Below, piece by piece: positions 19,329 to 64,000 of a stretch of DNA of 64,000 bases. The notes under the pieces were generated by a model. The model was given only the letters and a program-made list of their open reading frames with translations, did no database searches and was not told where the DNA came from. Source of the DNA: Nannobrachium achirus (Eukaryota > Chordata > Actinopteri > Myctophiformes > Myctophidae); the NCBI GenBank assembly GCA_963921795.1, contig OY997642.1:56529331-56593330 (forward strand), given 5' to 3'. The position numbers were made by a program, and so were the translations under genes. Positions within the stretch are counted from its first letter, which is position 1; each line of letters starts with the position of its first letter.

Positions 19329-19700
19329 AGGGATTTGTTCACTGTGATTATATAACAGTAAATAAGAATGGTTTATATTTGTAATATTTTAGTGATTTTT
19401 CTTTCTGGCCTATAGGCCATGTGAGAATTGAGTGGGTGGAGGTTGTGGTTTGGCAGCTAAGGAGTGTGTGCGCAAAGTTTGGCATGGATAAGGGCAACGG
19501 TGGCAGAGATATGAGTAGGGCAAAAGTGTGACGCTTGGTGACGTACAGACAGAGGGGCAGCCGGTGGAGGTTTATTATTATCTCACTACCTAATTCAAAA
19601 TAATGGCGTACCACAAAAATAGTGTCTCTGTCCATCTGCAACTCCACGTTCATCGGTTGTTCAATTGTCCTAAAAAACATAATGCAAAAATCAATAACTG
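19329..19700. other. Downstream of protease gene
   Basis: No gene is recognised. Confidence 0.5.
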
Positions 19701-19701
19701 G

Positions 19702-20285
19702 TCACTTGGGACATGTGGGCACTTGGATAACTGGGCACCTGGATAACTGGGCACTACGGACATGTGGGCACTTGGAGAGGTGGGCACCGGGACAACTGGG
19801 CACTTGGAGGGGTGGACACCTGGACAACTGGGCACTTGAGACATGTGGGCACTTGGAGACGTGGGCATCTGGAAAACTGGGCACTTGGGACATGTGGACA
19901 CTTAGAGAGGTGGGCACCTGGACAACTGGGCACTAGGGATATGTGGGCACTTGGCACCTAAACAACTGGGCACTAGGGACATGTGGGCACCTGGACAACT
20001 GGGTACATGGAGAGGTGGGCACCTGGACAACTGGGCACTAGGGACATGTGGGCACTTGGAGAGGTGGGCACCTGGACAACTGGGCACTATGTAGGCACTT
20101 GGAGAGGTGGGCACCTGAACAACTGGGCACTTGGGACATGTGGGCACTTGGATAGGTAGGCAGCCACCTTGACAACTGGGCACTTGAAACATGTGGGCAC
20201 TTGGAGAGGTGGGCACCTTGACAACTGGGCACTAGGGACATGTGGGCACCTGGCCAACTGAGTACTAGGGGCATGTGTGCAAGGA
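19702..20285 (+). repeat. Minisatellite with 16/16/17-bp higher-order unit
   Basis: About 35 subunits start GGGCAC and end alternately in GGACAACT, GGAGAGGT or GGACATGT. Three subunits make a repeating block of about 49 bp. Long open frames across it in several registers come from the absence of stops in the unit and are not genes. Confidence 0.92.
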
Positions 20286-26590: not shown

Positions 26591-26878
26591 CTGTACCTTA
26601 CTGTACTGTACCTTACTATACTGTACCTTACTGTACTGTACTGTACTGTACTGTACTGTACTGTACTGTACTGTACTGTACTATACTGTACTGTACTGTA
26701 CTGTACTGTACTGTACTGTACTGTACTGTACCTTACTGTGCTGTGCCTTACTGTATCTTACTGTACTGTATCTTCCTGTATTGTACCTTACTGTACTGTA
26801 CTGTACTTTACTTTACCTTACTGTACTGTACCGTACCTTACTGCACTGTACCTTACTGCACTGTACCTTACTGTACAA
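26591..26878 (+). repeat. CTGTA pentanucleotide repeat
   Basis: A pure CTGTA core with flanking variants containing CTTA and CTATA. As the unit is five bases, several frames stay open, giving artefactual Tyr/Leu/Cys-rich frames. Confidence 0.93.
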
Positions 26879-31442: not shown

Positions 31443-31684
31443 TACATCAAAATAAAGATATAGCTGCAAGCAGCGATAAAGTGCAAGCCAGGACAAAGTA
31501 TGAAAGGGAAAAAACTGCGGAAAAAAGCAGGAAAAGCAAGAAAAGTGGGAAAAGAAATCAAAGAAAAACTAGAAGCAGTGTTCTTCCGAGAACAGATCTC
31601 CGGCCAGTCAGGTAGGTTTTTTTGGCCTCCTGGTGGCGCTATAATAGGCCAATGTGAAATGGGTGCCACGTTTTCTTGCAGCTA

Positions 31685-31722
<38 letters not shown>

Positions 31723-32578
31723 CTTATAAAAAATAAAAAAGTGCACTTCATAGGCATGTTAAAGGTTGTTAGATTGTGTGTAGAATGTTTCATGCAAATT
31801 GCTCAAAAATCGTGTTTAAGCTCAAAATGATGAAAGCAAGTTGCATGTTTACAAGCCAAACGAGGCATGACTTATGCCAATTTTCAAACGCTTCGTATAG
31901 CGCCCCCCCTTTGGCCAATTGGAATAAGATTGGTTTCAGTGTTTGGACTAACCCTCTACATCTTTGCCAAATGTCATGATATGTGACTTTGCATGTATGA
32001 TTTAGAGGCAGAAGAATAATTTGCATAAAACTGCAATATTCATTGAATTACCGTATTAAAAAATTATTTCACGTACAAACTTCTTACCCCATAGCCTGAG
32101 TAGGTATTGGTCCAAATTTCATGTAAAAACTTTCTGTGCGCATGACGCGAAAATCCCAGGAGGAGATAGATTTTTACAGTTTTTCATATAATTCAAAATG
32201 GTGGAAGATCTAAAGGTCAGAGGTCAAAAGTCAGAGTGTCAAAGTCGTTTGGCATGAGGAGACGCATATTATGTGTGTCCAGGTTTCATGGCTGTACGTC
32301 AAACAGAGCATGAGCTATACCTGTTCAAAGTTTGCACTTTCAAAGGCTTCCTACAGCTTCCTACCTTTGGCCATTTTTTGCTAAAAGTAATAGCACACGT
32401 CTCCACAGTAAGCTGAACACAGTGATTTTTGAATGGTGATTTTCGGTGTAAGTATGTAGGAGTAGAAAGGTGCCAACATTTTGAGGAGAACTTATATAGT
32501 ATGACTGACTGACTGACTGTTAGATAAATAATGAGGATAACATACGTGTGCTCGCTTTCAGCGAGCCCACAATTATTA
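31443..32578 (+). mobile_element. Dispersed relative of the 51-64 kb array unit
   Basis: It shares with the array the GGTGGCGCTATAA block, the TTGCAGCTATATTTATT block with an ATT run, the TAGCGCCCCCC blocks and the GGTCAGAGGTCAAAAGTC block, in the same order. It starts with a GCTGCAAGCAGCGATA palindrome. It ends with a GCTCGC/GCGAGC hairpin followed by CCACAA, like the junction hairpins in the array. It lacks the CTAG start seen in the array. Confidence 0.7.
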
Positions 32579-42624: not shown

Positions 42625-44010
42625 ATCAGAATCAGAATCAGAATCAGAATCAGAAACACTTTATTGCCAAATGCGTCACAAGGACACACAGGAATTTGTT
42701 GTGGTGTTACAGCACAGATAAAAACACACAGACAGAACACATTTAAGACAAGACACTCAGGACATGATATAACCCATAATAAAGACTAAAATATACGTAA
42801 AACATCATTATTCTTTAAAAGTCAGTGGAATAAAAACTAGCTAACAAGAACAACAGGGGGTGGTGGAGAGGTCCATATTGAGGAGGGACACGGCCCTCGG
42901 GAAAAAACTGTTCAGGTGACGAGTGGTCTTGGTCCCTATGGCACGGAAGCGTCTTCCTGAGGGGAGCTTCTTAAAAAGACCATTACCAGGGTGAGAGGGG
43001 TCAGAGAAGATCCTCCCTGCCCGCTTCCTGACCCTGGCATCGTACAGCTCACTAACAGAAAGCTGCTTCTGTCCCGTCAGCTTCTCCGCTGTGCGAACAA
43101 TCCTTTGCAGTCTGTTTTTTGCAATGGCAGAGACAGAGCCAAACCACACAGAGATGGACGAGGAGAGTATACTCTCGGTGGTGGCTCTGTAGAATTGAGT
43201 CAGGACTGAACGGGAGACGTTGAGTTTCCTCAGCTGTCTTAGAAAGAGCATCCCATTATGGGCCCTTTTAATAATGGAGCAGGTGTTCGTCTCCCACTTG
43301 AGGTCATTGGTGATTGTGGTGCAGAGGAATTTAAAGGCTTCCACTTCCTTGACCACCGCACTGTTTATTATCAGAGGTGCCAGTGGGGGAGGGGATTTAC
43401 GGAAGTCCACGACCATCTCAACCGTTTTGAGTGGGTTGAGCTCCAGGTTGTGCTCAGAGCACCACACAGCCAGGTCGGTCACCGTCTGTCTATAAGCAGA
43501 CTCATCATTGTTCTTTATAAGACCTACCACGGTCGTGTCATCCGCATATTTGATCACCCTGATGGTCGGATTAGTGGATATGCAGTCATTAGTGTACAGC
43601 AGGTACAAAAATGAGGATAGTACACATCCTTGGGGTGCCAGGTGTTTCAGGATGTGGTGTAGGCCAATGTTGACTGCATCATCCACTGAACGGTTTTCTC
43701 TGTATGCGAACTGTGATGGGTCAAGGTGAGGGTCAGTAAGGGGCTTTAGGTAGGCGACAACTAGCTTTTCAAAGCACTTCATGGCTACAGACGTTAGGGC
43801 CACCGGTCTGTAGTCGTTGAGGCCTGTAACACTGTCCTTCTTGGGAATGGGGATTATAGTGGATGCTTTAAAACAAGCTGGCACTTTGCATTGTGCAAGG
43901 GACTGATTAAAAATATCAGTAAAAACTGGGGCTAGCTGATTGGCGCAGTGCTTCAGTGTGGCCGGTGAAATACCATCTGGGCCGCCTGCTTTCCATCCCA
44001 CTGCAGCCAC
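42625..44010 (-). mobile_element. L2-type LINE, 5' truncated, reverse transcriptase broken
   Basis: On the minus strand, a 412-codon frame (44,079 to 42,841) holds typical fish L2/CR1-group reverse transcriptase blocks: [65 protein letters not shown] and PSGRRFRAI. Between HHILKHL and APQGCVLS the segment that normally carries the first catalytic Asp is missing in frame, so the enzyme would be dead. The 5' part, including any endonuclease, is missing. The 3' end has a TTCTGA tandem tail (plus strand TCAGAA at 42,626-42,656), typical of this group. Confidence 0.85.
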
Positions 44011-44021
44011 CAATGTACTGT

Positions 44022-44095
44022 AGCCTCGGCCGGGAGGCGAACCCGGGACCCCGATATACGATTGCGTGTGCGTTACCACTCAACTAAAGAGCCAG
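44022..44095 (-). repeat. tRNA-derived SINE-like head
   Basis: On the minus strand an A box (TAGTTGAGTGGTAACG, 44,071-44,086) and a B box (GGTTCGCCTCC, 44,033-44,043) lie at tRNA spacing. A related piece (CAACTAAAGAGCCAGGCTT) lies at about 42,405-42,427, on the other side of the LINE, where the B box is absent. Confidence 0.55.
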
Positions 44096-51140: not shown

Positions 51141-51486
51141 AGTGCACTTTACTGGTAGTTACTGATAGTATTATAATGTCCACAACACATGAAATAATAA
51201 TCCTGTTTAGTTTCATTAGCGCGATCATGTGAGAATAGGCTACAGTGTGTTTTTGTCATTCTGCATAATGTACAGTTTGCACACACAAACAGTGCAACTT
51301 CTAGGATAAAGATACCAAGGTTTTGACAGTGATGTCCTTCTTATCCAACCCGGAAGTAGGAAGTAGCACAGGCTTGAAGTTTGAAGCCGTTTATAAACCA
51401 CAGTGACATCACTGACGAATCCTTGGTATCTTCAACTTTGCTCTCTGCTGTTTGGAAACTTCGGAGGTGGGAGATACCAAGTTGAA
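51141..51486. other. Spacer before the tandem array
   Basis: No gene. A small inverted repeat, AGATACCAAGG-type and its complement, lies near 51,310 and 51,420. Confidence 0.5.
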
Positions 51487-54400
51487 CTAGAAAAATATTG
51501 TTCCTTCGAAACAATTGTGGGCTCGCTTCAAGCCAGAAAACAATGGCTATAAAAGTACAAAATGTCAAGATCGCAGGCAGTGCTCTCTTTGACGTTACTG
51601 ACGTCAAAGATTGGTCCATTTTGTTCCAAAAATGTGTTGTGCAAAAGTTGACCCGCTGGTGGCGCTATAACAGGCCAATGTGAGAAGGTTGGTATCTGTT
51701 CCTTGACCTATTGGGAATGTGCTTGCAAGATTTCACGCACATCCCAGGCTGTGTTCATGATTTGAGGTGTTTTTGGCTTTGGACACTTTATCGCTGCTTG
51801 CAGCTATATTTATTATTATTATTTTATAATTTTTTTGTGTGCACTTCATAGGCATGTTAGATAAAGGTCCTTAGATTGTGTGTAGAATGTTTCATGCAAA
51901 TTGCAAAAAAAATCCTAGAATAAAAACGGGTTTAAGCGTTTTACAAACTGCTCAAAATTATATAGCGCCCCCCTTTGGCCATTTGGGGTAAGATTGGTTT
52001 CAGTGATATTTGAACTAACCCTCTACACTATTTTGTCATGAAAATGTGACTTTGCTTGTATGTTTTAGAGGCAGAAGAATAATTTGCATAAAAATGCAAT
52101 ATTGTTTGAATTATTTAAAAAAGCATGTTTCAATGTTAAAGGAATCCGATCTGACAGATCTTTAGATATCGGTCCAAAGTTCACGTAAAAAAAGTTTTGT
52201 GCACGTGACGCGAAAATTCCAGAATAAAAGCGGGTTTACGCGTTTTACAAACTGCTCAAAGTGGCGGAAAATCGAAGGGCGGAGCTTACTTAACAACGAC
52301 ACAGATGTCTTCCGCTTGAGTCAAAGCACGCGTGTAACAAGTTGCATGTCTTCAAACGAAACGAGTCATGACTTATGCCCGTTTGAAGTTTGAATTTTCA
52401 GACGCTTCGTATAGCGCCCCCCTTTGGCCGATTGGAATAAAATTGGTTTCAGTGATACCTTGACTAACCCTCTACATCTTTGCCAAATGCCATGAACGTG
52501 TAACTTTGCATGTATGATTTAGAGGCCGAAGAATAATTTGCATAAAACTGCAATATTTATTGAATTATTAAAAAAATATATTTCACTTTAAAAGAAATCC
52601 GCCGAGATTAGTTTGACCGTATTGGTCCAAAGTTCATGTGAAAAAAGTTTTGTGCGCGTATCGAAAAAAACCCAGGAGGAGATAGATTTTTACTGTTTTT
52701 CATATAATTCCGAATTGTGGGAGATCTAAAGGTCAGAGGTCAAAAGTCAGAGGCTAAAAGTTGTTCGGCATGAGGAGACGCATACGTGTATACAGGTTTC
52801 ATGCCTGTACCTCAAACACAGCATGAGCTATACCTGTTCAAAGTTCGCACTTTCGAAGGCTTCGTGCAGCGCCACCATTTGGCCGATTGCTATAAAAAAT
52901 AATAGCGCACTTCGCCACTGTAAACTGAACACATTGATGTTTTTATTTTCATTTTCTCACTAAGTATGTAGGAGTAGAAAGGAACCGAAGTTCCCGTCTA
53001 CTGTCTGTCTGACTGACTGACTGATAGATAAACTAGAAAAATATTGTTCCTTCGAAACAATTGTGGGCTCGCTTCAAGCCAGAAAACAATGGCTATAAAA
53101 GCACAAAATGACAAGATCGCAGGCAGTGCTCTCTTTGACGTTACTGACGTCAAAGATTGGTCCATTTTGTTCCAAAAATGTGTTGTGCAAAAGTTGACCC
53201 GCTGGTGGCGCTATAACAGGCCAATGTGAGAAGGTTGGTATCTGTTCCTTGACCTATTGGGAATGTGCTTGCAAGATTTCACGCACATCCCAGGCTGTGT
53301 TCATGATTTGAGGTGTTTTTGGCTTTGGCCACTTTATCGCTGCTTGCAGCTATATTTATTATTATTATTTTATATTTTTTGTGTGTGCACTTCATAGGCA
53401 TGTTAGATAAAGGTCCTTAGATTGCGTGTAGAATGTTTCATGCAAATTGCAAAAAAAATCCTAGAATAAAAACGGGTTTAAGCGTTTTACAAACTGCTCA
53501 AAATTATATAGCGCCCCCCTTTGGCCATTTGGGGTAAGATTGGTTTCAGTGATATTTGAACTAACCCTCTACACTATTTTGTCATGAAAATGTGACTTTG
53601 CATGTATGTTTTAGAGGCAGAAGAATAATTTGCATAAAAATGCAATATTGTTTGAATTATTTAAAAAAGCATGTTTCAATGTTAAAGAAATCCGATCTGA
53701 CAGATCTTTAGATATCGGTCCAAAGTTCACGTAAAAAAAGTTTTGTGAACGTGACGCGAAAATTCCAGATTAAAAGCGGGTTTAAGCGTTTTACAAACTG
53801 CTCAAAATGGCGGAAAATCTAAAGGCGGAGCTTACTTAAAAAAGACACAGATGTCTTCTGCTTGAGTCAAAGCACGCGTGTAAGCAAGTTGCATGTCTTC
53901 AAACGAAACGAGGCATGACTTATGCCCGTTTAAAGTTTGAATTTTCAAACGCTTTGTATAGCGCCCCCCTTTGGCCGATTGGAATAAAATTTGTTTCAGT
54001 GATACTTTGACTAACCCTCTACATCTTTGCCAAATGCCATGAACGTGTAACTTTGCATGTATGATTTAGAGGCCGAAGAATAATTTGCATAAAACCGCAA
54101 TATAGATTGAATTATAAAAAAATATATATTTCACTTTAAAAGAAATCCGGCGAGACTAGTTTGACCGTATTGGTCCAAAGTTCATGTGAAAAAAGTTTTG
54201 TGAGCATAACGCGAAAATCCCAGGAGGAGATAGATTTTTACTGTTTTTCATATAATTCCAAATTTTGGGGGATCTAAAGGTCAGAGGTGAAAAGTCCGAG
54301 CGTAAAAGTTGTTCGGCATGAGGAGACGCATACGTGTATACAGGTTTCATGGCTGTACGTATAACAGAGCATGAGCTCTACCTGTTCAAAGTTCGCACTT

Positions 54401-57400
54401 TCGAAGGCTTCCTACAGCGCCACCATTTGGCCGATTGCTGTATAAAATAATAGCACACTTCGCCACTGTAAGCTGAACACATTGATGTTTTTATTTTCAT
54501 TTTCTCACTAAGTATGTAGGAGTAGAAAGGAACCGAAGTTTTGAGGAGAACTTGATATGACAATATCAAGTTCTCACTAGAAAAATATTGTTCCTTCGAA
54601 ACAATTGTGGGCTCGCTTCAAGCCAGAAAACAATGGCTATAAAAGCACAAAATGTCAAGATCGCAGGCAGTGCTCTCTTTGACGTTACTGACGTCAAAGA
54701 TTGGTCCATTTTGTTCCAAAAATGTGTTGTGCAAAAGTTGACCCGCTGGTGGCGCTATAACAGGCCAATGTGAGAAGGTTGGTATCTGTTCCTTGACCTA
54801 TTGGGAATGTGCTTGCAAGATTTCACGCACATCCCAGGCTGTGTTCATGATTTGAGGTGTTTTTGGCTTTGGACACTTTATCGCTGCTTGCAGCTATATT
54901 TATTATTATTATTTTATAATTTTTTTGTGTGCACTTCATAGGCATGTTAGATAAAGGTCCTTAGATTGCGTGTAGAATGTTTCATGCAAATTGCAAAAAA
55001 AATCCTAGAATAAAAACGGGTTTAAGCGTTTTACAAACTGCTCAAAATTATATAGCGCCCCCCTTTGGCCATTTGGGGTAAGATTGGTTTCAGTGATATT
55101 TGAACTAACCCTCTACACTATTTTGTCATGAAAATGTGACTTTGCATGTATGTTTTAGAGGCAGAAGAATAATTTGCATAAAAATGCAATATTGTTTGAA
55201 TTATTTAAAAAAGCATGTTTCAATGTTAAAGAAATCCGATCTGACAGATCTTTAGATATCGGTCCAAAGTTCACGTAAAAAATGTTTTGTGCACGTGACG
55301 CGAAAATTCCAGAATAAAAGCGGGTTTACGCGTTTTACAAACTGCTCAAAGTGGCGGAAAATCGAAGGGCGGAGCTTACTTAACAACGACACAGATGTCT
55401 TCCGCTTGAGTCAAAGCACGCGTGTAACAAGTTGCATGTCTTCAAACGAAACGAGTCATGACTTATGCCCGTTTGAAGTTTGAATTTTCAGACGCTTCGT
55501 ATAGCGCCCCCCTTTGGCCGATTGGAATAAAATTGGTTTCAGTGATACTTTGACTAACCCTCCACATCTTTGCCAAATGCCATGAACGTGTAACTTTGCA
55601 TGTATGATTTAGAGGCCGAAGAATAATTTGCATAAAACCGCAATATTGATTGAATTATTAAAAAATGATATTTCACTTTAAAAGAAATCCACCGAGATAA
55701 ATCTGACCGTATTGGTCCAAAGTTCATGTGAAAAAAGTTTTGTGCGTGTAACAAAAAAAACCCAGGAGGAGATAGATTTTTACTGTTTTTCATATAATTC
55801 CGAATTGTGGGAGACCTAAAGGTCAGAGGTCAAAAGTTAGAGGGTAAAAGTTGTTCAGCATGAGGAGACGCATAAGTGTATACAGGTTTCATGGCTGTAT
55901 GTATAACACAGCATGAGCTATACCTGTTCAAAGTTCGCACTTTCGAAGGCTTCCTACAGCGCCACCATTTGGCCGATTGCTGTAAAAAGTAATAGCACAC
56001 TTCGCCACTGTAAACTGAACACATTGATGTTTTTATTTTCATTTTCTCACTAAGTATGTAGGAGTAGAAAGGAACCGAAGTTTTTTGATACTTGATATGC
56101 CTGCCTGATAGATAAACTAGAAAAATATTGTTCCTTCGAAACAATTGTGGGCTCGCTTCAAGCCAGAAAACAATGGCTATAAAAGGACAAAATGTCAAGA
56201 TCGCAGGCAGTGCTCTCTTTGACGTTACTGACGTCAAAGATTGGTCCATTTTGTTCCACAAATGTGTTGTGCAAAAGTTGACCCGCTGGTGGCGCTATAA
56301 CAGGCCAATGTAAGAAGGGTGGTATCTGTTCCTTGACCTATTGGGAATGTGCTTGCAAGATTTCACGCACATTGCAGGTGTTCATGATTTGAGGTGTGTT
56401 TGGCTTTGGCCACTTTATCGCTGCTTGCAGCTATATTTATTATTATTATTATTTATTTTGTGTGTGTGCACTTCATAGGCCTATTAGATAAAGGTCCTTA
56501 GATTGTGTGAAGAATGTTTCATGCAAATTGCAAAAAAAAATCCTAACGGGTTTAAGCGTTTCACACACTGCTCAAAATGATATAGCGCCCCCCTTTGGCC
56601 AATTGGAGTAAGATTGGTTTTAGTGATATTTGGACTAACACTCTACATCTTTGCCAAATGCCATGAACATGTTACTTTGCATGTATGATTTAGAGGCAGA
56701 AGAATAATTTGCATAAAACTGCAATATTCATTGAAATTATTTAAAAAAGCATGTTTCAATTTTAAAGAAATCCGATCTGACAGATCTTTAGATATCGGTC
56801 CAAAGTTCACGTAAAAAAAGTTTTGTGCACGTGGAGCGAAAATTCCAGAATAAAAGCGGGTTTATGCGTTTTACAAACTGCTCAAAATGGCGGAAAATTG
56901 AAGGGCGGAGCTTACTTAACAACGACACAGATGTCTTCCGCTCGAGTCAAAGCACACGTGTAACAAGTTGCATGTCTTCAAACGAAACGAGTCATGACTT
57001 ATGCCCGTTTGAAGTTTGAATTTTCAAACGCTTCGTATAGCGCCCCCCTTTGGCCGATTGGAATAAAATTGGTTTCAGTGATACTTTGACTAACCCTCCA
57101 CATCTTTGCCAAATGCCATGAACGTGTAACTTTGCATGTATGATTTAGAGGCAGAAGAATAATTTGCATAAAACCGCAATATTGATAGAATTATTAAAAA
57201 ATTATATTTCACTTTAAAAGAAATCCGCCGAGATTAGTTTGACCGTATTGGTCCAAAGTTCATGTGAAAAAAGTTTTGTGCGCGTATCGAAAAAAACCCA
57301 GGAGGAGATAGATTTTTACTGTTTTTCATATAATTCCGAATTGTGGGAGACCTAAAGGTCAGAGGTCAAAAGTTAGAGGGTAAAAGTTGTTCGGCATGAG

Positions 57401-57660
57401 GAGACGCATACGTGTATACAGGTTTCATGCCTGTACCTCAAACACAGCATGAGCTATACCTGTTCAAAGTTTGCACTTTCGAAGGCTTCCTACAGCGCCA
57501 CCATTTGGCCGATTGCTATAGAAAATAATAGCACACTTCGCCACTGTAAACTGAACACATTGATGTTTTTATTTTCATTTTCTCACTAAGTATGTAGGAG
57601 TAGAAAGGAACCGAAAATCCCGTCTACTTACTAGATAAACAAATAAATAAATAAATAAAT

Positions 57661-57823
57661 AATGACAATATCTAAAGTGTGCTCGCCAGGTACTGGCGAG
57701 CCCACAATAAATAAATAAATAATGACAATATCTAAAGTGTGCTCGCCTTATAGGCGAGCCCACAATAAATAAATAAATAATGACAATATCTAAAGTGTGC
57801 TCGCCTTATAGGCGAGCCCACAA
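57661..57823. repeat. Three tandem 60-bp hairpin units at an array junction
   Basis: Three near-identical units read AATGACAATATCTAAAGTG, then GCTCGCC..GGCGAGC hairpins with different loops (AGGTACT in the first, TTATA in the next two), then CCACAA, separated by AATA runs. A single unit occurs at the junctions before 61,299 and 62,868. Confidence 0.9.
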
Positions 57824-59371
57824 CTAGAAAAATATTGTTCCTTCGAAACAATAGTGGGCTCGCTTCTAGCCGGAAAACAATGGCTATAAAAGTACAAAAT
57901 GTCAAGATCGCAGGCAGTGCTCTCTTTGACGTTACTGACGTCAAAGATTGGTCCATTTTTTCCAAAAATGTTAATGCAAAAGTTGACCCGCTGGTGGCGC
58001 TATAACAGGCCAATGATAGAAGGGTGGTATCTGTTCCTTGACCTATTGGGAATGTGCTTGCAAGATTTCACGCACATCCCAGGCTGTGTTCATGATTTGA
58101 GGTGTTTTTGGCTTTGGCCACTTTATCGCTGCTTGCAGCTATATTTATTATTATTATTTTATTATTTTATTGTATGCACTTCATAGGCATGTTAGATAAA
58201 GGTCCTTAGATTGCGTGTAGAATGTTTCATGCAAATTGCTAAAAAGAAATCCTAGAATAAAAACGGTTTTAAGCGTTTCACAAACTGCTCAAAATGATAT
58301 AGCGCCCCCCTTTGGCCAATTGGGGTATGATTGGTTTTAGTGATATTTGGAATAACACTCTACATCTTTGCCAAATGCCATGAACATGTTACTTTGCATG
58401 TATGATTTAGAGGCAGAAGAATAATTTGCATAAAACTGCAATATTCATTGAATTTATTTAAAAAAGCATGTTTCAATTTTAAAGAAATCCGATCTGACAG
58501 ATCTTTAGATATCGGTCCAAAGTTCACGTAAAAAAAGTTTTGTGCACGTGGAGCGAAAATTCCAGAATAAAAGCGGGTTTACGCGTTTTACAAACTGCTC
58601 AAAATGGCGGAAAATTGAAGGGCGGAGCTTACTTAACAACGACACAGATGTCTTCCGCTTGAGTCAAAGCACGCGTGTAACAAGTTGCATGTCTTCAAAC
58701 GAAACGAGTCATGACTTATGCCCGTTTGAAGTTTGAATTTTCAAACGCTTCGTGTAGCGCCCCCCTTTGGCCGATTGGAATAAAATTGGTTTCAGTGATA
58801 CTTTGACTAACCCTCCACATCTTTGCCAAATGCCATGAACGTGTAACTTTGCATGTATGATTTAGAGGCCGAAGAATAATTTGCATAAAACCGCAATATT
58901 GATTGAATTATTAAAAAATTATATTTCACTTTAAAAGAAATCCGCCGAGATTAGTTTGACCGTATTGGTCCAAAGTTCATGTGAAAAAAGTTTCATGCGC
59001 GTATCGCGAAAATCCCAGGAGGAGATAGATTTTTACTGTTTTTCATATAATTCCGAATTGTGGGAGACCTAAAGGTCAGAGGTCAAAAGTTAGAGGGTAA
59101 AAGTTGTTCGGCATGAGGAGACGCATAAGTGTATACAGGTTTCATGGCTGTACGTATAACAGAGCATGAGCTATACCTGTTCAAAGTTCGCACTTTCGAA
59201 GGCTTCCTACAGCGCCACCATTTGGCCGATTGCTTTAAAAAGTAATAGCACACGTCGCCACAGTAAGCTGAACACATTGATGTTTTTATTTTCATTTTCT
59301 CACTAAGTATGTAGGAGTAGAAAGGAACCGAAGTTTTGAGGAGAACTTGATATGACGGTTAGATATTGTCA

Positions 59372-59708
59372 CTAGAAAAATATTGTTCCTTCGAAACAAT
59401 TGTGGGCTCGCTTCAAGCCAGAAAACAATGGCTATAAAAGCACAAAATGTCAAGATCGCAGGCAGTGCTCTCTTTGACGTTACTGACGTCAAAGATTGGT
59501 CCATTTTGTTCCAAAAATGTGTTGTGCAAAAGTTGAAGGCTTCCTACAGCGCCACCATTTGGCCGATTGCTGTAAAAAATAATAGCACACTTCGCCACTG
59601 TAAGCTGAACACATTGATGTTTTTATTTTCATTTTCTGTCTAAGTATGTAGGAGTAGAAAGGAACCGAAGGTTTGAGGAGAACTTGATATGACGGTTAGA
59701 TATTGTCA
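59372..59708 (-). mobile_element. Array unit with a 1.2-kb internal deletion
   Basis: The first about 165 bp match other units up to AAAAGTTGA, then the sequence jumps to GGCTTCCTACAGCGCC and runs to the normal unit end. Both termini are kept. Confidence 0.88.
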
Positions 59709-62700
59709 CTAGAAAATATTGTTCCTTCGAAACAATTGTGGGCTCGCTTCAAGCCAGAAAACAATGGCTATAAAAGTACAAAATGTCAAGATCGCAGGCA
59801 GTGCTCTCTTTGACGTTACTGACGTCAAAGATTGGTCCATTTTGTTCCAAAAATGTGTTGTGCAAAAGTTGACCCGCTGGTGGCGCTATAACAGGCCAAT
59901 GTAAGAAGGGTGGTATCTGTTCCTTGACCTATTGGGAATGTGCTTGCAAGATTTCACGCCCATTGCAGGCTGTGTTCATGATTTGAGGTGTTTTTGGCTT
60001 TGGCCACTTTATCGCTGCTTGCAGCTATATTCATTATTATTATTATTTTTTTTTGTGTGTGTGCACTTCATAGGCATATTAGATAAAGGTCCTTAGATTG
60101 TGTGTAGAATGTTTCATGCAAATTGCAAAAAAAAATCCTAATGGGTTTAAGCGTTTCACAAACTGCTCAAAATGATATAGCGCCCCCCTTTGGCCAATTG
60201 GGGTAAGATTGGTTTTAGTGATATTTGGACTAACACTCTACATCTTTGCCAAATGCCATGAACATGTTACTTTGCATGTATGATTTAGAGGCAGAAGAAT
60301 AATTTGCATAAAACTGCAATATTCATTGAATTTATTTAAAAAAGCATGTTTCAATTTTAAAGAAATCTGATCTGACAGATCTTTAGATATCGGTCCAAAG
60401 TTCACGTAAAAAAGAGTTTTGTGCACGTGGAGCGAAAATTCCAGAATAAAAGCGGGTTTACACGTTTTACAAACTGCTCAAAATGGCGGAAAATCGAAGG
60501 GCGGAGCTTACTTAACAACGACACAGATGTCTTCCGCTCGAGTCAAAGCACGCGTGTAACAAGTTGCATGTCTTCAAACGAAACGAGTCATGACTTATGC
60601 CCGTTTGAAGTTTGAATTTTCAAACGCTTCGTATAGCGCCCCCCTTTGGCCGATTGGAATAAAATTGGTTTCAGTGATACTTTGACTAACCCTCCACATC
60701 TTTGCCAAATGCCATGAACGTGTACCTTTGCATGTATGATTTAGAGGCCGAAGAATAATTTGCATAAAACCGCAATATTGATTAAATTATTAAAAAATTA
60801 TATTTCACTTTAAAAAAAATCTGGTTGATCAATCTGACCGTATTGGTCCAAAGTTCATGTGAAAAACGTTTTGTGCACTTGACGCGAAAATCCCAGGAGG
60901 AGATAGATTTTTACTGTTTTTCATATAATTCCGAATTGTGGGAGACCTAAAGGTCAGAGGTCAAAAGTTAGAGGGTAAAAGTTGTTCGGCATGAGGAGAC
61001 GCATACGTGTATACAGGTTTCATGGCTGTATGTATAACACAGCATGAGCTATACCTGTTCAAAGATCGCACTTTCGAAGGCTTCCTACAGCGCCACCATT
61101 TGGCCGATTGCTATAGAAAATGATAGCACACTTCGCCACTGTAAACTGAACACATTGATGTTTTTATTTTCATTTTCTCACTAAGTATGTAGGAGTTGAA
61201 AGCGGACAAAGTATTGAGGAGAACTTGATATGCTCTGGTTGATAGATAAATAATGACAATATCTAAAGTGTGCTCGCCAGGTACTGGCGAGCCCACAACT
61301 AGAAAAATATTGTTCCTTCGAAACAATTGTGGGCTCGCTTCTAGCCACAAAACAATGGCTATAAAAGTACAAAATGTCAAGATCGCAGGCAGTGCTCTCT
61401 TTGACGTTACTGACGTCAAAGATTGGTCCATTTTTTCCAAAAATGTTATGCAAAAGTTGACCCGCTGGTGGCGCTATAACAGGCCAATGATAGAAGGGTG
61501 GTATCTGTTCCTTGACCTATTGGGAATGTGCTTGCAAGATTTCATGATTTGAGGTGTTTTTGGCTTTGGCCACTTTATCGCTGCTTGCAGCTATATTTAT
61601 TATTATTATTTTATTATTTTATTGTATGCACTTCATAGGCATGTTAGATAAAGGTCCTTAGATTGCGTGTAGAATGTTTCATGCAAATTGCTAAAAAGAA
61701 ATCCTAGAATAAAAACGGTTTTAAGCGTTTCACAAACTGCTCAAAATGATATAGCGCCCCCCTTTGGCCAATTGGGGTATGATTGGTTTTAGTGATATTT
61801 GGAATAACACTCTACATCTTTGCCAAATGCCATGAACATGCTACGTTGTATGTATGATTTAGAGGCAGAAGAATAATTTGCATAAAAATGCAATATTCAT
61901 TGAATTATTTAAAAAAGCATGTTTCAATTTTAAAGAAATCCGATCTGACAGATCTTTAGATATCGGTCCAAAGTTCACGTAAAAAAAGTTTTGTGCACGT
62001 GACGCGAAAATTTCAGAATAAAAGCGGGTTTACGCGTTTTACAAACTGCTCAAATTGGCAGAAAATCTAAGGGCGGAGCTTACTTAACAACGACACAGAT
62101 GTCTTCCGCTTGAGTCAAAGCACGCGTGTAACAAGTTGCATGTCTTCAAACGAAACGAGTCAAGACTTATGCCCGTTTGAAGTTTGAATTTTCAAACGCT
62201 TCGTATAGCGCCCCCCCTTTGGCCAATTGGAATAAGATTGGTTTCAGTGATATTTGGACTAACCCTCTACATGTTTGCCAAATGCCATGAAAGTAACACT
62301 TTGCATGTTTGATTTAGAGGCAGAATAATAATTTGCATAAAACCGCAATATGAATTGAATTATTAAAAATTAATGGTTTAACGTACAAACTTCTCACCAC
62401 ATAGACTGTATAGGTATTGGTCCAAAGTTCATGTGAAAAAAGTTTTGTGCACTTGACGCGAAAATCCCAGGAGGAGATAGATTTTTACTGTTTTTCATAT
62501 AATTCCGAATTGTGGGAGACCTAAAGGTCAGAGGTCAAAAGTTAGAGGGTAAAAGTTGTTCGGCATGAGGAGACGCATAAGGGTATACAGGTTTCATGGC
62601 TGTATGTATAACACAGCATGAGCTATACCTGTTCAAAGATTGCACTTTCGAAGGCTTCCTACAGCGCCACCATTTGGCCGATTGCTATAATAAATAATAG

Positions 62701-64000
62701 CACACTTCGCCACTGTAAACTGAACACATTGATGTTTTTATTTTCATTTTCTCACTAAGTATGTAGGAGTAGAAAGGAACCAAAGTTTTTTGATACTTGA
62801 TATGCCTGCTTAGTATAGAAATAATGACAATATCTAGAGTGTGCTCGCCTTATAGGCGAGCCCACAACTAGAAAAATATTGTTCCTTCGAAACAATTGTG
62901 GGCTCGCTTCAAGCCGGAAAACAATGGCTATAAAAGCACAAAATGTCAAGATCGCAGGCAGTGCTCTCTTTGACGTTACTGACGTCAAAGATTGGTCCAT
63001 TTTTTCCAAAAATGTTATGCAAAAGTTGACCCGCTGGTGGCGCTATAACAGGCCAATGATAGAAGGGTGGTATCTGTTCCTTGACCTATTGGGAATGTGC
63101 TTGCAAGATTTCATGATTTGAGGTGTTTTTGGCTTTGGCCACTTTATCGCTGCTTGCAGCTATATTTATTATTATTATTTTATTATTTTATTGTATGCAC
63201 TTCATAGGCATGTTAGATAAAGGTCCTTAGATTGCGTGTAGAATGTTTCATGCAAATTGCTAAAAAGAAATCCTAGAATAAAAACGGTTTTAAGCGTTTC
63301 ACAAACTGCTCAAAATGATATAGCGCCCCCCTTTGGCCAATTGGGGTATGATTGGTTTTAGTGATATTTGGAATAACACTCTACATCTTTGCCAAATGCC
63401 ATGAACATGCTACGTTGTATGTATGATTTAGAGGCAGAAGAATAATTTGCATAAAAATGCAATATTCATTGAATTATTTAAAAAAGCATGTTTCAATTTT
63501 AAAGAAATCCGATCTGACAGATCTTTAGATATCGGTCCAAAGTTCACGTAAAAAAAGTTTTGTGCACGTGACGCGAAAATTTCAGAATAAAAGCGGGTTT
63601 ACGCGTTTTACAAACTGCTCAAATTGGCAGAAAATCTAAGGGCGGAGCTTACTTAACAACGACACAGATGTCTTCCGCTTGAGTCAAAGCACGCGTGTAA
63701 CAAGTTGCATGTCTTCAAACGAAACGAGTCAAGACTTATGCCCGTTTGAAGTTTGAATTTTCAAACGCTTCGTATAGCGCCCCCCCTTTGGCCAATTGGA
63801 ATAAGATTGGTTTCAGTGATATTTGGACTAACCCTCTACATGTTTGCCAAATGCCATGAAAGTAACACTTTGCATGTTTGATTTAGAGGCAGAATAATAA
63901 TTTGCATAAAACCGCAATATGAATTGAATTATTAAAAATTAATGGTTTAACGTACAAACTTCTCACCACATAGACTGTATAGGTATTGGTCCAAAGTTCA

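Follow-up and report, generated by a model that had tools for sequence, protein, structure and literature searches.

The window analysed here is a 64,000-nucleotide stretch of the genome of the fish Nannobrachium achirus (C5:56529331-56593330; genome of 1.66 Gb, 564 contigs), and from position 51487 onward it holds a head-to-tail array of repeat units that, judged by their termini, we classify as non-autonomous Helentron/HINE-type rolling-circle transposons, in minus-strand sense in the window. An earlier reading of the window's letters (the original prediction) had described nine unit starts continuing beyond the window. On re-reading, all nine starts (CTAG at 51487, 53033, 54577, 56117, 57824, 59372, 59709, 61299 and 62868) and all eight spacings (1546, 1544, 1540, 1707, 1548, 337, 1590 and 1569 bp) are exact, and the array does continue, to a total of 12 units between window coordinates 51487 and ~69108, 5.1 kb past the window end. 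The sequence CTAGAAAAATATTGTTCCTTCGAAACAA is error-free at eight of the nine window unit starts, the start at 59709 having one A fewer. The features of the array and its one relative elsewhere in the window are as follows.

51487..53032, minus strand: 3'-most unit of the array; CTAG at 51487-51490, then host T; truncated leader of the TTTATCTATC type at 52992-53032
53033..54576, minus strand: unit with the fold-back hairpin leader TGAGAACTTGATAT..ATATCAAGTTCTC (54540-54576); differs from a unit on contig C9 at a single position in 1544 bp
54577..56116, minus strand: unit with a truncated TTTATCTATC-type leader at 56082-56116
56117..57823, minus strand: unit whose leader, 57618-57823, consists of three stacked 5' palindromic modules
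57824..59371, minus strand: unit with a remodelled TGACAATATCTAACC-type leader at 59335-59371
59372..59708, minus strand: 337-bp unit with an internal deletion, both ends kept; TGACAATATCTAACC-type leader at 59672-59708
59709..61298, minus strand: unit with a complete 5' palindromic end (leader 61213-61298) and a 3' end one T shorter
61299..62867, minus strand: unit whose 5' palindromic end is complete (leader 62787-62867); a local duplicate, its core sharing 99.73% identity with that of the next unit
62868..64000, minus strand: unit cut by the window end; it runs to 64436 (L026), followed by three more units to ~69108
62868..62907, minus strand: example of the 3' terminus, with GCGAGCCCACAA (3' subterminal repeat), hairpin and CTAG
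62839..62867, minus strand: one instance of the complete 5' palindromic subterminal repeat (TTGTGGGCTCGCC..GGCGAGCACAC), with CTAG immediately before it
31675..32497, minus strand: diverged partial relative of the unit, 81% over 690 bp, elsewhere in the window

Anatomy and classification of the units

Read on the minus strand, the units end in GCGAGCCCACAA-TTGTTTCGAAGGAACAA-TATTTTTCTAG, then T (one T fewer in one window unit). The 3' hairpin has six Watson-Crick pairs plus one T.G pair, lies 10 nt before the end, and is weak by energy alone (z -1.6; 18 of 200 shuffles were equally good). The complete 5' end reads TTGTGGGCTCGCC-TATAA-GGCGAGCACAC, a strong palindrome (-13.2 kcal/mol, z -6.7); its initial 12 bases, when reverse-complemented, give the GCGAGCCCACAA of the 3' end. 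The 3' end is constant whereas 5' leaders vary among units: complete 5' ends begin TTGTGGG, and the remaining leaders are truncated or remodelled. Four kinds recur, namely the full palindrome, in some cases stacked up to six times; truncations, for instance TTTATCTATC; an inverted snippet, TGACAATATCTAACC, with no notable folding (z -0.4); and a fold-back hairpin, TGAGAACTTGATATTGTCATATCAAGTTCTC (z -7.7). The stacked form is built of a ~46-bp palindromic module repeated 3 to 6 times at some unit or array starts (window 57618-57823; loci L063, L064 and L068), which could have arisen by abortive insertions or slippage. Within window units (e.g. 53504-53990 and 53954-54448) there are two ~71% diverged copies of a block of ~455-495 bp, and the last 329 bp of the unit are also found joined to another body, at the ATAAATATAGCTGCAAGCAGCGAT point.

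Copies outside arrays fix the boundaries. Among the first 100 listed 3' ends, 32 are singletons, and in all 20 of those that we read the border is CTAG|T (TT in 17 of 20), with flanks that appear unrelated by eye. The Helitron-type 3' end that had been predicted on the minus strand, with a hairpin, a short spacer, CTAG and a host T, is borne out by dispersed copies. The predicted opposite edge, TC after A, is not: complete 5' ends start TTGTGGGCTCGCC, and dispersed copies have the TTGTGGG palindrome at their 5' border. The host base before this palindrome or its first arm is A in 12 of the 13 ends read (L010, L013, L016, L047, L055 and L062-L068) and T in L021. In L055 the first 5' base is changed, and L016 and L047 carry deletions inside the palindrome; L047 is a 94-bp derivative with both termini flanked by host DNA.

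These termini agree best with Helentrons and their non-autonomous HINE relatives (DINE-1-like, Helitron2-type), which have palindromic 12-bp subterminal inverted repeats and a 3' hairpin (Thomas et al. 2014, PMC4067079). Subterminal inverted repeats of 12-15 bp, the 5' one within a palindrome, are present as TTGTGGGCTCGC and GCGAGCCCACAA. The 3' repeat, expected ~38-60 nt from the end, lies at 29-40 nt, at the near edge of that range. The palindrome expected nearer the 3' end corresponds to the weak hairpin 10 nt from it. As in Helentrons and HINEs, there are Rep-bearing relatives with a common 3' end, and we saw no coding capacity in the unit. Insertion into TT without target duplication, typical of that group (PMC4067079), is not what we find, since the sites are A|T, with A before the 5' end in 12 of 13; in this the units resemble proto-Helentron-Pi of Phytophthora infestans, with its 5' TT, 3' CTAG and insertion between A and T (PMC4067079). 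The same source makes no mention of tandem arrays in the part of its proto-Helentron-Pi description available to us, unlike the situation here, and the very large head-to-tail arrays and the near-confinement of palindrome-free leaders behind CTAG likewise set the present family apart from Helentrons and HINEs as described there. The 3' CTRR, the hairpin 10-12 nt upstream and the A|T insertion of canonical Helitrons (Helitron1) are also seen (CTAG, 10 nt), and the original prediction was right to place the 3' end in the Helitron superfamily and to see a transposon turning satellite-like. A canonical Helitron with a 5' TC is ruled out by the complete TTGTGGG ends, which belong to a palindromic subterminal repeat of the Helentron/HINE type.

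Joins, leaders and Rep-bearing partners

The exact 3'-end pattern has 7219 matches in the genome and its reversed control none, and so it is not a chance pattern; a 37-base pattern for the form one T shorter has 1828 matches at up to three mismatches, again with a control of 0. Exact joins of CTAG to a following leader number 1580 for the full palindrome, 677 for TTTATCTATC, 1288 for TGACAATATCTAACC and 106 for TGAGAACTTGATATTG, each with a reversed control of 0. Summed over these four leader types there are at least 3651 tail-to-head joins, a lower bound because other leader types are left uncounted; the ratio of joins to 3' ends is about one half, approximate only because the join patterns span a shorter 3' stretch than the pattern behind the 7219 count. 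Neighbouring 3' ends less than 6 kb apart among the first 100 listed share a strand in 51 of 54 pairs (3 opposite), and same-strand clusters hold 68 of these 100 ends. Two clusters on C1 contain 49 listed joins in 81.4 kb and 36 in 68.3 kb, with few gaps.

The leaders differ sharply in where they occur. The TGACAATATCTAACC leader lies directly behind an exact CTAG end in 1288 of 1310 cases (reversed control of the total, 1) and the fold-back TGAGAACTTGATATTG leader in 106 of 111 (reversed control of the total, 2); 100 listed fold-back (TGAGAAC) leaders come from 73 loci on 23 contigs, with four adjacent-unit pairs. Two leader types without the canonical palindrome are thus abundant and widespread and yet almost absent away from CTAG ends. 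Among 12 array starts, eight (L010, L062-L068) follow a host A and have complete palindromes; the leader is truncated in the remaining four (on C5, on C2, and at 58.41 and 9.0 Mb on C1), which directly follow the CTAG of another family. Five solitary copies behave similarly, L013, L016, L047 and L055 at a host A and L015 behind CTGG. Taken together, 12 of 12 host-site 5' ends start with the palindrome or its first arm and 5 of 5 ends behind another family's CTRR are truncated (p 1.6e-4, in a post hoc test devised after the data were seen). This test left out L014 (diverged, end unclear), L017-L020 and L022-L025 (rearranged, cut or unread), L021, the C1:85.03 Mb locus (another family's end without CTRR) and starts behind partner tails.

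Sequence identity among units bears on whether they move singly. In 31 array units from C5, C9, C10, C16 and C17 (the 337-bp unit omitted, so that one of the 26 "adjacent" pairs is actually separated by it), mean identity is 95.8% for adjacent units (n 26), 95.4% within arrays (n 97) and 95.7% between arrays (n 368). Because adjacent units are about as alike as units of different arrays, arrays are not homogenised and neighbours do not in general come from one concatemer; within-array homogenisation as the main force is ruled out on the same ground. Of the two mechanisms that had been named for the array, end-to-end insertion fits most junctions better, and simple read-through, which would give identical neighbours, does not fit these values. 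The closest pair is the window unit at 53033 (C5_u10) and C9_u3, which show 1 difference in 1544 positions. The next differences in their flanks come 1 base downstream and 70 bases upstream, and per 900 flanking bases there are 47 differences upstream and 55 downstream. A C16 copy of the same unit has 8 differences, and the fold-back leader is common to the C5, C9 and C16 copies.

The Helitron_like_N domain (PF14214) was scored in 150 of 245 genome candidates, with many open frames above 2000 aa and a longest of 3176. With the stretch upstream of a C9 3' end (L039:7900-8440) as query, we scored 40 of 1939 candidate partner tails. Among these 40, all 10 full-length matches lie 10.3-28.5 kb downstream of a PF14214 Rep on the same strand, whereas of the 30 partial matches six lie downstream of a listed Rep, one lies only upstream of a Rep and 23 have no listed Rep within 30 kb. 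Each of the 10 full-length tails is followed by a unit (nine read, and one C1 copy judged from coordinates alone, its listed join falling at the predicted base 81033999). In eight of the tails read, the 40-nt terminus is exact and a unit comes next, its leader being of the TGACAAT (2), TTTATC (2), TGAGAAC (1) or full-palindrome (3) kind; in the C9 partner copy the 40-nt 3' terminus is exact as well, and a unit follows. The suggestion that Rep-bearing relatives with the same ends should exist therefore holds for the 3' terminus, common to the unit and the Rep-linked tails. Six partial tail matches downstream of Reps were also read: in all of them CTTT replaces CTAG, no unit is present there, and the tails (L077-L081, L083) run ~70 bases on to a different hairpin (GCTGCTTGCAGC) before the flanks diverge. 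This sister group is a possible natural case of a lost terminator and an extended 3' end. Of 24 Reps on C1 and C2, three have a same-strand 3' end less than 60 kb downstream and three an opposite-strand end only, among the listed places compared.

One candidate partner was rejected. A C1 gene at 85.03 Mb encodes Rep, a PIF1 helicase and an endonuclease (PF03372, 8.1e-9) and has the 329-bp tail downstream, but there the tail joins another repeat; of 40 scored matches among 2565 candidates this configuration is full-length only at that locus, and C16 has both parts with a gap. The gene belongs to another family, whose 3' end seems to be different to judge from a tandem pair on C12, and the single adjacency may well be chance. 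At that C12 site (C12:5386089, L038:5690), between two same-strand Reps, the 3' end TGCTATTGCATAGCAGGCACACTTAAT seems to run straight into the palindromic 5' end GAGTGCATATGCACT, which would make this a different family with the same stacking habit. Same-strand Rep clusters occur at C9:8.18-8.27, C14:25.23-25.43, C1:14.70-14.86, C10:56.70-56.84 and C508:0.69-1.03 Mb, the Reps, in frames of 2205-2743 aa, being mostly 23-101 kb apart (one 183 kb); head-to-tail arrays may also be formed by large elements of other families.

The flank behind the array's 3' end (51300-51486) contains inverted repeats of GATACCAAG(G/TTGAA) over ~170 bp, perhaps another transposon end. A degenerate minisatellite (TGGGCACTTGGACA-like) and a CTGTA pentanucleotide array lie at 19696-20281 and 26591-26876, and a reverse transcriptase fragment (PF00078, 1.8e-20) with an ALKBH8_N match lies at 42841-44079 on the minus strand. 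As to host gene context, six of the 11 window open reading frames of at least 130 aa were scanned, and apart from that reverse transcriptase and ALKBH8_N frame the five others had no match.

How the arrays grow

Unit anatomy, the 3' boundary, the counts, the acceptor restriction, the single-unit identity block and the partner 3' ends are read directly from the genome, and the arrays are most economically explained by insertion at the terminal CTAG^T of a resident copy. We consider it likely that units spread singly, with resident CTAG^T 3' termini as the preferred landing site and with Rep elements taking part. The HUH (Rep) nuclease of the partner would make two cuts, one at the CTAG^T of a unit and one at the CTAG^T that comes next downstream. 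What lies between them would be released as a copy, probably a single-stranded circle, and inserted behind the CTAG of a different resident copy; since the cuts affect a single strand, orientation would be preserved. To finish its own transposition the nuclease has to cut at CTAG^T, and the acceptor would be this same site. Entry into ordinary host A^T sites would require the canonical 5' palindrome, and within an array the upstream CTAG^T may replace a unit's own 5' cut. Palindrome-free units could then still move, only between CTAG^T sites, because the CTAG^T of the unit upstream stands in for the 5' cut. Insertion at a resident CTAG^T would account for the same-strand rule, the G/T join without a host A, the joins to other families and the identity block confined to a single unit. 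Among bacterial single-strand transposons, IS91/ISCR and IS200/IS605 insert beside a motif equal to their own cleavage site and show one-ended mobilisation.

Several observations weigh against this account, at least in its pure form. Leaders of the TGACAATATCTAACC and TGAGAACTTGATATTG types are found 22 and 5 times, respectively, away from an exact CTAG end, and these may be mutated ends, chance or host sites. The TGACAAT leader is spread over several core lineages in the tree, and eight TGACAAT cores are only marginally alike (permutation p 0.057), a sign that template switching or recombination is at work too. Near-identical neighbours also exist (the units at 61299 and 62868, 99.73%), and the C1:58.33-58.41 Mb cluster has a run of eight equal leader types with partly repeating spacing, so that local duplication contributes. 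A further Rep at C1:71817452 (3155 aa) has only an opposite-strand end among the places compared, and the six CTTT copies count as one event because, by common descent, they represent one ancestral change. Recombination or template switching and local duplication are thus acting alongside insertion.

Could one of these processes, or another, explain the arrays by itself? Suppose that the arrays were founded a single time and that unequal crossing-over and gene conversion, without any targeted insertion, then enlarged them and swapped their units; the combination of leader types with several core lineages, the local duplicates and the partly repeating spacing would all be expected. However, the identity block of the closest pair stops at the unit boundary, the 100 listed TGAGAAC units on 23 contigs include just four adjacent pairs, and at four loci an array starts directly behind another family's CTAG, and we regard homologous recombination of this kind as unlikely. 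Rolling-circle concatemers, in which multimers from one event (a circle or read-through of the hairpin) insert as arrays, have some precedent: terminator bypass has been demonstrated for Helraiser (PMC4778049) and proposed for bat and silkworm arrays (PMC4067079), the CTTT sister group of partners continues into extra sequence, and some near-identical neighbours and the partly repeating spacing at C1:58.4 Mb are consistent with it. Nevertheless, neighbours do not on average resemble each other more closely than units from different arrays do, and each examined array unit keeps its own 3' end, unlike plant arrays (Xiong et al. via PMC12628747), which makes such an origin distinctly unlikely here.

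The order of events left open for maize, in which a newcomer inserts at A^T in front of a resident (PMC2267711), is compatible with the eight array starts read in host DNA, all A|TTGTGGG with complete palindromes. It would nonetheless need the remodelled types to have been at a host A once, and 1288 of 1310 and 106 of 111 sit behind CTAG; the counts for these two leader types therefore speak against it. It also leaves unexplained the 99.9% identical unit that lies between different neighbours on C5 and C9, and we find it very unlikely. As for collapsed or chained repeats, we rely on a single assembly, which also counts against the reading that we prefer, and long near-identical repeats are difficult to assemble. 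Yet adjacent units differ by ~4% on average, thousands of joins involve several distinct leaders, one of which alone is found on 23 contigs, and a single orientation rule prevails (51 of 54 pairs same-strand), so an assembly artefact is hardly credible as the source of the arrays.

Insertion at resident 3' ends, which we prefer, also allows a more far-reaching reading that we hold only tentatively. The family may have moved away from random insertion in host DNA towards a closed cassette economy in which resident CTAG^T serves as both donor cut and acceptor, and units without a functional 5' end (~1,400 copies, two types) would spread through the genome as obligate array dwellers, parasitising the 3' termini of complete copies and of Rep-carrying elements.

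Comparison with known arrays and implications

Earlier work describes tandem Helitrons in bat and silkworm (PMC4067079) and lists them for bat, Drosophila, rice, maize and a fungus (PMC5148889); those of Myotis were described by Pritham and Feschotte (cited in PMC2267711). A close precedent is a pair of adjacent maize Helitrons with a G/T join, for which the GT of a 3' end was put forward as the insertion site (Du et al., PMC2267711); there, as here, the next element follows directly after the previous CTAG with no host A between. The TC Helitrons of that report comprise one case in maize and several in bat, whereas here there are thousands of joins and several leader types. Plant Helitron arrays (Xiong et al. 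2016, via PMC12628747) likewise show rolling-circle elements becoming satellite-like arrays, but many of them follow a model of multiple 5' ends and a single 3' end (PMC12628747); in the present arrays each examined unit carries a 3' end of its own, while 5' ends vary. Both the G/T join and tandem Helitrons are already in the literature, and what looks new is the scale together with the acceptor-restricted types: we found no report of acceptor-restricted leader types, or of arrays at this scale, in the openly accessible literature.

The origin of tandem Helitrons has been debated since the first bat and maize cases, with read-through, circles and insertion at a neighbour's end all under discussion. 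With thousands of joins between units of marked types, each of these models predicts something different that can be counted, and the tallies favour insertion at the 3' end of a resident copy. This is a plausible route from a transposon to satellite-like DNA in which each unit remains a potential donor. If it is true that units without their own 5' end move, the two-end definition of a Helitron would need revision for arrays. The genome of this fish is a large natural record of array formation by rolling-circle transposons.

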